Source: Polyangium mundeleinium (GTDB lineage Bacteria; Myxococcota_A; Polyangia; Polyangiales; Polyangiaceae). From it: a stretch of 64,000 nucleotides of DNA. The stretch lies in assembly GCF_028369105.1 (NCBI RefSeq), contig NZ_JAQNDO010000001.1:5424501-5488500 (forward strand), in the 5' to 3' direction. How positions within the stretch are numbered: position 1 is the stretch's first letter; each line of letters begins with the position of its first letter. The translations under genes and the position numbers were made by a program. Of the stretch, positions 19,729 to 55,685 are shown one piece after another. The notes beneath the pieces are model-generated. The model had not been told where the DNA came from. It did not search any database and worked only from the letters and a program-made list of their open reading frames with translations.

Positions 19729-20525
<797 letters not shown>

Positions 20526-39221: not shown

Positions 39222-39231
39222 GGCTCGGCCC

Positions 39232-39270
39232 GGCGGTCCCGCGCCCGTGCCCCCGGCGCGCGGGACCGCC
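39232..39270 (+). terminator. Strong hairpin terminator
   Basis: Arms GGCGGTCCCGCGC (39232-39244) and GCGCGGGACCGCC (39258-39270) pair perfectly over 13 bp around a 13-nt loop, 11 bp after the FG-GAP gene, followed by a pyrimidine-rich stretch (TGTTCTCCCTTCTC). Confidence 0.7.
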
Positions 39271-39380
39271 TGTTCTCCCTTCTCGCGAAATCCGACCGTT
39301 TGCACCGGTGCCCCCCACCGTGTCATCTTCGGAGCCATGTGCCGGTTCGACAGCGGTTCCACCCGAGCGGTCCTTTGAGC

Positions 39381-39815
39381 ATGCGCACGTGGCGGCAACG
39401 ACAAGGGGGGCGCTACCTGGGGGTGCTCATGAGCCTCTTGGGTGTGGGATGCGGGGGGAGCGCACAGGACACGCGGGTCCTCGCGTGGGTGCATGCGCAG
39501 AGCGTCGCGCCCCCATCCACGCGAGAGATGTCCCTCTCGGGCGATCTTGCCGGGGCGAGCGCGGATGCCCGGGTGCACGTGGCGCGGCTCGCCGATGGGC
39601 GCACTTGCATCCTCCTCAAGAAGTCCATTGGATGGAAGAGCAACTTCGAGGGGGTGCTCCTGTGTGACGCCCCCCTGCTTCCTGCCGAGATCGTAACGGC
39701 GTCGCCCGCTTCACCTGCCTACGTGAGCCTGACCGGGCACGTGGTGTTCGAGGAGCTGTATGTGCGAACCCAGCGCGACCCACGCACCTTCGACGTATAC
39801 TTCGATCTGAACTGA
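39381..39815 (+). CDS. Small hypothetical lipoprotein
   Basis: 144 residues from ATG 39381. A signal peptide with lipobox (LMSLLGVGC) is followed by a Gly/Ser start and a compact domain rich in beta-strand residues (VHVARLADGRTCILLKKSI; LTGHVVFEELYVR). No family recognised. Two later cysteines (RTC, LLC) could form a disulphide. Codon third positions are GC-rich, supporting a real gene. The array of 43-bp repeats begins 100 bp after its stop. Confidence 0.58.
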   Translation: MRTWRQRQGGRYLGVLMSLLGVGCGGSAQDTRVLAWVHAQSVAPPSTREMSLSGDLAGASADARVHVARLADGRTCILLKKSIGWKSNFEGVLLCDAPLLPAEIVTASPASPAYVSLTGHVVFEELYVRTQRDPRTFDVYFDLN

Positions 39816-39915
39816 CCCTCCCGCTGCTGCTCCCGAGGCGCGGCCTTTCCCTTCCTCAAAAGCGATACAAACTGACCGGCCCCCCTGACGTGGTGGGATC
39901 CGCGGTACGTTCGTT

Positions 39916-40260
39916 ATGGGGGCTCCCCATGACGGCACCCGAGCGCCGGGGCCAGGCGATGGGGCCTCCCCAAAGACCACCCCGAGCGCCGGGACCAGGC
40001 GATGGGCGCTCCCCATGACGGATGCAGACCGCCGGGACCAGGTGATGGGGCGTCCCCATGACGGCACCCGAGCGTCCGGACCAGGTAATGGGACCTCCCC
40101 AAAGAGCACCCCGAGCGTCCGGACCAGGCGATGGGGCGTCCCCATGACGGCACTCGAGCGCCGGGACCAGGTGATGGGGCCTCCCCAATGACGGCACCCG
40201 AGTGTCCGGACCAGGCGATGGAGCCTCCCCATGCCGGCACCCGAGCGTCCGGACCAGGCG
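39916..40260. repeat. Array of eight 43-bp palindromic units
   Basis: Eight head-to-tail units, seven of 43 bp and one of 44 bp, start at 39916, 39959, 40002, 40045, 40088, 40131, 40174 and 40218, with a degenerate ninth start at 40261. Each contains a short inverted repeat (ATGGGG-nn-CCCCAT form), a GACGGCACCCGAG block and a CCGGGACCAG block. Units 2 and 5 share the variant AAAGA(C/G)CACC. The unit length is not a multiple of three, so it is not a peptide repeat; there are no unique spacers, so it is not a CRISPR. Confidence 0.9.
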
Positions 40261-40273
40261 TTGGGGCTTTCCC

Positions 40274-40310
40274 GCTCCAAAATGGAGCACCCAGCGCTCC
40301 ATTTTGGAGC
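40274..40310. repeat. 15-bp perfect inverted repeat at array end
   Basis: GCTCCAAAATGGAGC (40274-40288) and its exact complement (40296-40310) with a 7-nt loop. Each arm is itself nearly palindromic, so the site can form either one long or two short hairpins. AT-rich compared with its surroundings. Confidence 0.8.
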
Positions 40311-40440
40311 ACCTCGCCGGTCCCGTCGCGTCGGGGCCAGCGAGAAGTGTACCACAGCCAACGGTCTCAAGGGTGAAGATGGCCCGTAGGCAGCGGATCC
40401 GGTGGAAGACGGCCTGGAATGGGGGCTGCGATTCTGGCGG

Positions 40441-40480
40441 AACGGGCGGACCGACCTGAAGGGAGGACGGCCCGCCCGTT
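40441..40480 (-). terminator. Hairpin downstream of four-helix-bundle gene
   Basis: Arms AACGGGCGG (40441-40449) and CCGCCCGTT (40472-40480) pair over 9 bp, immediately after the stop of the minus-strand gene; loop of 22 nt. Possible terminator. Confidence 0.35.
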
Positions 40481-40483
40481 GTA

Positions 40484-40813
40484 TTACGATGCGCGGCGGT
40501 AGACGAGGCGTCCGAGGGTGGCGATGACGTGGTCCATTCGGTCCAGCGCCTGCGCGTCGACGGCGCCGATGTACCGCATGGCCTGGGCGACCTGGACGCA
40601 GGCCAGCACCTCCCGAGCCGATCCCAATGCGGTCTGATAGCGCTGCCGCTTGTGCCCGGCCGTGTTCCCGGCTCCTTCCGCCACATTCAGCGCGACGCTA
40701 TGCATGGCCCTGCGCAGTTGCCGACCGAGATCGGAATCCCGTCGTTCAATCCTCTCTGCAATGCCCGCCGCGTCCCCGGCCATCGCCAAAACCACGTCGT
40801 AAATCCTCAGCAT
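40484..40813 (-). CDS. Four-helix-bundle protein (23S rRNA intervening-sequence type)
   Basis: 109 residues from ATG 40813, with GGAGG 6 nt upstream. The sequence LRIYDVVLAMAGDAAGIAERIERRD, LGRQLRRAMHSVALNVAEGAGN and the Ala/Arg-rich later helices match the small S23/IVP four-helix-bundle family (typical length 110-125). The signature S-x-x-x-N-(I/V)-A-E-G is present as SVALNVAEG. These proteins were first found in rRNA intervening sequences and related folds include the Avd accessory protein of diversity-generating retroelements; no reverse transcriptase is in the window. They bind nucleic acid through a basic surface; precise function here unknown. Bordered by a palindromic array on one side and an inverted repeat on the other. 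Confidence 0.85.
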   Translation of the reverse strand: MLRIYDVVLAMAGDAAGIAERIERRDSDLGRQLRRAMHSVALNVAEGAGNTAGHKRQRYQTALGSAREVLACVQVAQAMRYIGAVDAQALDRMDHVIATLGRLVYRRAS

Positions 40814-40871
40814 AAAGAACCTCCGCCCGACGACCCAATCGCCGGGACCCCGCCCCCCACCGTCGCGCGCA

Positions 40872-40965
40872 GGCCTCTTCAAGGCTGCGCAGCACCGCGC
40901 GGAGCCGCGCGGAGCAGCACGCAGTGCTGCGAGCACGGCGAGCACGGCAAGGCCTTGAAGAGGCC
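40872..40965. repeat. 14-bp inverted repeat with 66-bp spacer
   Basis: GGCCTCTTCAAGGC (40872-40885) and its exact complement (40952-40965) lie upstream of the four-helix-bundle gene. The spacer has internal GCACGCAGTGCTGC-type symmetry. A long hairpin or the ends of a small element are possible. Confidence 0.6.
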
Positions 40966-41004
40966 GAGCACGACGGTACGCTCGCCGTCCCCGAGCGGGC
41001 TCCC

Positions 41005-41094
41005 CCGCTCCCGCTCCCGCCTGCGCTTCCGCTCCCGCTCCCGCCTGCGCTTCCGCTCCCGCTCCCGCCTGCGCTTCCGCTCCCGCTCCCGCGC
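41005..41094. repeat. 24-bp tandem repeat, about 3.5 copies
   Basis: The unit CGCTCCCGCTCCCGCCTGCG + CTTC is repeated head to tail, nearly identical between copies, and ends 11 bp before the stop of the M61-like gene. It is strongly strand-asymmetric (pyrimidines on plus). Its open frames are low-complexity Arg/Ser/Pro and are not considered genes. Confidence 0.75.
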
Positions 41095-41105
41095 CCGCCC
41101 CCGCC

Positions 41106-49253: not shown

Positions 49254-55685
<6,432 letters not shown>

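Follow-up and report, generated by a model that had tools for sequence, protein, structure and literature searches.

The 64,000-nucleotide stretch of the Polyangium mundeleinium genome analyzed here (the window; contig NZ_JAQNDO010000001.1, positions 5,424,501 to 5,488,500 of the forward strand) contains, at 39916-40310, a tandem array of palindromic units about 43 bp long. Arrays that are unrelated in sequence but share a step of 41 to 43 bp lie upstream of genes of a single family, represented in Polyangium by a gene that we call ORF-X and in Bacteroidales by DUF6261 genes. The occurrence of sequence-unrelated arrays with one step beside one gene family in distant taxa points to an undescribed system of gene and putative binding sites, and the chances seem evenly balanced that the window array is a dispersed trans member of the family of site arrays belonging to the ORF-X/DUF6261 proteins.

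Tandem Repeats Finder (TRF) calls the window array at 39916-40267 with a period of 43, 8.2 copies, and a score of 418, and it scores a 129-bp (three-unit) period higher (492 versus 418). By reading, eight units span 39916-40260, all of them 43 bp long except for one of 44 bp (40174-40217), and CCCCAAAGA is common to units 2 and 5. These results bear out a first-pass annotation of the window, which had described a regular array of eight 43-bp units, changes shared by units 2 and 5, duplication of a three-unit block, and a lack of spacers; the units are indeed contiguous and all of one family. They are followed by one half unit and then by two 15-bp near-palindromes, so that the array and its ends read as follows.

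39880 to 39915, plus strand: possible 5' head, judged by eye only to resemble a stretch of about 40 bp before three other arrays (L014, L027, and L029)
39916 to 39958, plus strand: unit 1, 43 bp, ATGAC type (TRF and reading)
39959 to 40001, plus strand: unit 2, 43 bp, AAAGA type (TRF and reading)
40002 to 40044, plus strand: unit 3, 43 bp, ATGAC type (TRF and reading)
40045 to 40087, plus strand: unit 4, 43 bp, ATGAC type (TRF and reading)
40088 to 40130, plus strand: unit 5, 43 bp, AAAGA type (TRF and reading)
40131 to 40173, plus strand: unit 6, 43 bp, ATGAC type (TRF and reading)
40174 to 40217, plus strand: unit 7, 44 bp, one A inserted (reading)
40218 to 40260, plus strand: unit 8, 43 bp (TRF and reading)
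40261 to 40273, plus strand: half unit TTGGGGCTTTCCC closing the array, placed in the same way in relatives
40274 to 40288, plus strand: tail near-palindrome 1, GCTCCAAAATGGAGC, inverted in orientation compared with relatives
40296 to 40310, plus strand: tail near-palindrome 2, GCTCCATTTTGGAGC
40311 to 40324, plus strand: ACCTCGCCGGTCCC, a 3' end recurring in several trans copies (partly by reading)

The long inverted repeat previously assigned to the end of the array does have perfect 15-bp arms (40274-40288 and 40296-40310, with a spacing of 7 nucleotides). Because each arm is a near-palindrome by itself (GCTCCA-TTT-TGGAGC), and because the tail copies are direct repeats (GCTCCRTTTTGGAGC) lying 21 to 22 bp apart in nearly all relatives of the window array, this inverted repeat represents a local variation on a near-palindrome that is repeated. 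Similarly, the ATGGGG/CCCCAT hairpin said to be present in every unit is found in only part of them; the core conserved in the family is TGGGGNNTCCCCA. As a single strand, the array folds better than shuffled sequences (z of -3.0 for DNA and -2.3 for RNA), and a search of the window against Rfam at gathering score gave 0 matches.

The array family in Polyangium and the linked gene ORF-X

BLAST of the window array against 39 genomes of the genus, family, and order of P. mundeleinium placed the family to which it belongs (A-type arrays) at several sites in 6/6 Polyangium genomes, including about seven in the window genome, and in 1/33 genera searched, that genus being Polyangium itself. Carriers in a separate pattern scan of GTDB genomes were likewise Polyangium (P. 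fumosum and strains 6x1, 15x6, and y55x31), and none of the pattern-scan loci outside the genus matched the unit hidden Markov model. Matches to a two-hairpin pattern in other taxa were mostly unrelated or 21-bp arrays and were set aside. The first-pass annotation had reasoned that absence from close relatives and from any second locus would indicate a neutral local expansion; the family is instead present in all the Polyangium genomes, and copy number, which it had also singled out, does vary. Several arrays occupy orthologous sites in two species and differ there in their number of units, one such site being reduced to the half unit and tail (L013 versus L028).

Members of the family have a polarity, recognized partly by reading, that runs from a divergent first unit through AAAGA-type and then ATGAC-type units to the half unit and the tail. 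Exact copies of the tail motif GCTCCRTTTTGGAGCAC number 25 across five of the six Polyangium genomes and are mostly at arrays. Over 140 family units, selected by a regular expression on TGGGGNNTCCCCA, this same sequence is the conserved palindrome core, the outer pairs are not kept, and the outer stem positions show no covariation (68/140 paired, against 67 by chance). A-type arrays follow no strand rule, the left neighbor being on the plus strand in 17 cases and on the minus strand in 14 with improved gene calls; a first reading, in which arrays lay mainly after co-directional genes, was dropped on better gene calling. A link to the replication origin or terminus was also dropped, the contig start not lying at a recognizable origin.

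In five of the six Polyangium genomes, ORF-X, which encodes an all-helical protein of about 262 amino acids, lies directly downstream of at least one copy of the A-type array. Loci L016, L021, L024a, L030, L035, and L036 share 1.1 to 1.3 kb comprising array, tail, and ORF-X and differ in their left flanks, and L039 is a tail-only copy that shares the tail and the downstream ORF-X. The ORF-X-linked copies have a third palindrome in place of the trans-copy 3' end ACCTCGCCGGTCCC. Every Polyangium genome has 3 to 7 ORF-X paralogs, and relatives occur in two further Polyangiaceae genera (G008 and G093). One A-type ORF-X copy (in L109, G004:C21) contains a single in-frame TAG.

The step was measured as the lag, between 15 and 120, at which self-similarity was best in the 560 bp upstream of each gene, with downstream sequence as the control. 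The upstream signal peaks at 42/43 or its double for 25/27 ORF-X genes, compared with 2/27 downstream, and two ORF-X genes of a third genus (G093) have the same upstream periodicity. The arrays upstream of other ORF-X paralogs differ in sequence, and nearly all have a 43-bp step; their unit palindromes include TTTGGGG-CCT-CCCCAAA, CTTGGCG-CTT-CGCCAAG, GGAACGTTCC, and CTCCTCCCCAGGGGAGGA, among others. Units are thus often palindromic and specific to the subfamily, their sequence being wholly different from one ORF-X subfamily to another, and array type mostly tracks protein clade. A sigma54-like motif (TGGCAY-N5-TTGC) lies about 56 to 82 bp upstream of 14/15 clade-1 genes having upstream sequence, between the array and ORF-X, and therefore the promoter probably lies downstream of the clade-1 array, which leaves the array outside the presumed mRNA. 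The motif was not found at clade-2 ORF-X genes, though arrays are present there.

DUF6261 genes in Bacteroidales and arrays in trans

The only Pfam hint for ORF-X is DUF6261 (PF19775; best E value, 0.037; first member, 14.2 bits), which falls below the gathering score of that family (27 bits). Profile comparison of ORF-X with DUF6261 gave an hhalign probability of 90.6 (E value, 1.3e-6; 237 columns), and independent AlphaFold (AF2) models of the two proteins (mean predicted local distance difference test scores of 88.9 and 93.0) agree in the order of their helices, two of which are long. By these comparisons, ORF-X is a remote relative of DUF6261 over its full length. Matches from PADLOC, PHROGs, and NCBIfam were scattered and confined to single members, and those from Foldseek and VIA (helical sensor domains, e.g., McpS and TorS) were discounted as weak and usual for helical bundles.

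DUF6261 genes are present in 25/247 Bacteroidales genomes, a single genome having as many as 14 scored copies. An upstream lag of 41 to 43 or its double was found at 26/34 DUF6261 loci, compared with 4/34 downstream (all weak doubles), in a sample of the highest-scoring loci that includes paralogs from one genome and ignores kinship, so that these counts are not independent trials. Linkage of array and gene in cis extends over two phyla. In a named record found separately, from Prevotella nigrescens, a palindromic 41-bp array lies at the 5' end of the DUF6261 gene, and the predicted link between DUF6261 and arrays thus held in an independent record. One query of phages returned no DUF6261 match, and one Prevotella megaplasmid has a match. 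The DUF6261 proteins of L157, L160, and L162 carry a C-terminal extension like secreted repeat domains (VTLHGKGGYKGQF...), with no signal peptide seen by eye. Other intergenic palindrome arrays of Bacteroidales (L043, L044, L059, L082, and L086), of the TTTTGGGG type or with GGGGCATCCCC, repeat every 21 bp or so, at half the step of the DUF6261 arrays, and the genome of L044 has DUF6261 genes.

Array types also occur in trans, separated from the gene with which they are linked elsewhere in that genome. This is the case for three other Polyangium types and for types of the Bacteroidales genomes G593, G439, G400, and G393, and the stretches of 4 to 8 kb examined around trans copies in G593 (4 places), G439, and G400 contain no DUF6261 gene. 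In G593, which is a single chromosome, the 41-bp unit found next to one DUF6261 gene turns up again at four other intergenic sites, and no DUF6261 gene lies within about 4 kb of any of these. The genes flanking these four arrays are convergent, divergent, or co-directional, and thus no regulatory position is favored.

A putative array-binding protein family and its alternatives

We propose that each ORF-X/DUF6261 gene typically has an upstream array with units of 41 to 43 bp in a sequence specific to the subfamily, and that the all-helical protein, which would be elongated with a basic C-terminal tail, binds its own array as dimers assembling side by side. Dimers are suggested by the palindromic units. 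Since the step corresponds to about four turns of DNA, successive sites would lie on the same face of the helix, and because the step is fixed despite free change of sequence, geometry is the simplest explanation for it. The array-bound protein may autoregulate its own gene in cis, and the same protein may mark or bridge further chromosomal sites in trans. The window array would then be a secondary trans site, orphaned in that the window genome has no ORF-X bearing an A-type array, and it might be bound by a remaining paralog or be a relic. Among the roles raised in the first-pass annotation (protein-binding array, recombination hotspot, or RNA structure), binding of protein fits best, and the tie to a gene family had not been foreseen.

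Several observations weigh against this proposal. In two cases array type and protein clade disagree: L111 combines an A-type array with a protein of the C clade, and the B-type array of L117 accompanies a protein adjoining the A clade. The window genome itself has A-type arrays and no ORF-X with one. Pfam recognizes no DNA-binding domain in ORF-X/DUF6261 proteins, and no convincing fold match was obtained for them. Such an upstream array is lacking at 8/34 DUF6261 loci, and trans copies follow no consistent rule of position or strand with respect to genes. A few 42- to 43-bp arrays of other sequence and with no known partner gene also appeared in a scan of control Polyangium DNA (L099, 1-560; L090, 1680-2240; L103, 4480-5040).

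A serious rival, though on balance an unlikely one, is selfish dispersal, in which array and ORF-X/DUF6261 gene form a mobile pair, the gene helping to copy or amplify units into intergenic sites. Trans arrays would then be nonautonomous and have no host function, as proposed for repetitive extragenic palindromic (REP) sequences and their RAYT transposases. The intergenic trans copies without positional rule, and the recurrent 3' end among them, are consistent with this, as is the setting of the window copy.

39222 to 41105, no strand assigned: 1.9-kb stretch with a small lipoprotein-like gene, the array, and an IVP-gene element, missing at the syntenic site of two relatives

The genes flanking this stretch adjoin in the two relatives (L089 and L090; gaps of 168 and 12 bp), and the stretch is therefore extra in the window genome. 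It is, however, composite, consisting of a 143-amino-acid lipoprotein-like gene (which other species have at other places, with no array beside it), the array, and a 23S_rRNA_IVP-type gene; the empty sites thus do not show that the array itself moved, and we rejected them as proof of the array inserting alone. Further arguments against selfish dispersal are that neither ORF-X nor DUF6261 has a nuclease or transposase domain in Pfam, that arrays are few per genome, that several trans arrays keep the same sites across species, and that no clean target-site duplication was seen.

Somewhat less probable is a second alternative, in which the arrays are enhancer-like sites for another regulator, such as an activator of sigma54-like promoters, and ORF-X/DUF6261 genes are merely regulated. 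The motif upstream of clade-1 genes fits this explanation, and so do the tail palindromes, 21 to 22 bp apart just upstream of it. The arrays of clade-2 ORF-X genes, which lack the motif, do not, nor do the many trans arrays that face no promoter, and to account for a unit that differs from paralog to paralog in two phyla, many different regulators would be required. That the arrays act as transcribed RNA hairpins, in mRNA 3' ends, attenuation, or stability, is improbable: folding exceeds that of shuffles and some arrays lie 5 to 100 bp past a co-directional gene, but the outer pairs do not covary, the clade-1 array lies outside the presumed mRNA, strand bias is absent with improved gene calls, and hairpins need no fixed step of 41 to 43 bp. 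Neutral minisatellites, intergenic by chance, are very improbable, since variable copy number at orthologous sites and the site worn down to its last half unit and tail would agree with them, but sequence-unrelated arrays of one step in front of a single gene family in both phyla, compared with the downstream controls, do not.

Extending the array-binding proposal, we consider it possible, at rather less than an even chance, that DUF6261/ORF-X forms a widespread and so far undescribed class of putative array-binding chromosomal proteins, each paralog reading its own palindromic unit with the four-turn step in common. Genomes across Bacteroidota and Myxococcota would then hold several insulated protein-array pairs, with arrays in cis and in trans, and the step would set how the protein assembles along DNA. 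A conserved step combined with freely changing sequence is unusual. A family with no assigned function, reaching 14 scored copies in a Bacteroidales genome, gains a testable DNA partner, and DUF6261 proteins gain a concrete first assay; if binding is true, the pairs would be mutually specific and would offer a new route by which gut and soil bacteria organize the chromosome or control genes. The open-access papers to which our search was confined, with subscription papers and preprints outside its scope, contain no description of such arrays for Polyangium or for myxobacterial or Bacteroidetes tandem or palindromic repeats; a single one of them names DUF6261, incidentally, and none names PF19775.

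The 23S_rRNA_IVP gene (PF05635; 40484-40813, minus strand), to the right of the window array, is multicopy in Polyangium, with 20 matches in the window genome. Halves of IVP genes lie 5.5 to 9 kb apart in several places (L095-L097, L100, and L101), and between them, by eye, are similar ordinary metabolic genes in two species (alcohol-dehydrogenase-like, peroxiredoxin-like, and DsbA-like). The split genes suggest insertion into IVP copies or recombination between them. A CCCGCT-type hexameric repeat (41004-41104) lies at one end of the IVP element, and similar repeats flank other IVP copies. Elsewhere in the window, 19919-19985 is a near-pure G run of 67 bases, and 49845-52823 holds about 11 copies of a 276-bp (92-codon) tandem repeat, likely encoding a repetitive protein.

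Comparison with known systems

REP sequences and bacterial interspersed mosaic elements (BIMEs), together with RAYT (TnpA-REP) genes, are short, dispersed intergenic palindromes with one repeat type per gene, mostly co-inherited (PMC2817692). The arrays described here resemble them in being dispersed intergenic palindromes whose type mostly tracks the associated gene. They differ in being one-sided, tandem, few, and fixed at a step of 41 to 43 bp: flanking of the gene on both sides by inverted repeat copies, as in REP/RAYT, was not found, the periodic array being upstream only (downstream, 2/27 and 4/34). Moreover, at the thresholds used, none of the 27 ORF-X and 28 DUF6261 proteins matched the Y1 transposase domain (PF01797).

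Iterons are tandem, helically phased direct repeats of about 17 to 22 bp that lie upstream of a plasmid Rep gene at replication origins. The arrays are similarly tandem and phased upstream of a linked gene, to which binding is here attributed by proposal, but they are chromosomal, with several paralogs per genome and copies in trans, and the linked proteins have no Pfam match to a Rep-type DNA-binding domain. The parS site is a single conserved palindromic chromosomal sequence, and its partner ParB is a CTPase that spreads or bridges. The arrays are likewise palindromic chromosomal sites, at which spreading or bridging is only proposed, but they are diverse in sequence, and the linked protein is all-helical and has no Pfam match to the ParB family. 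As in CRISPR, regular repeats form an array; unlike CRISPR, units of the window family are contiguous, all of one family, diverging continuously, and free of spacers. By the features tested, then, the arrays are not REP/RAYT, CRISPR, an Rfam RNA, or a Rep- or ParB-linked system. DUF6261 and ORF-X, by comparison, have in common a remote homology, the same helix order, and arrays with a step of 41 to 43 bp.
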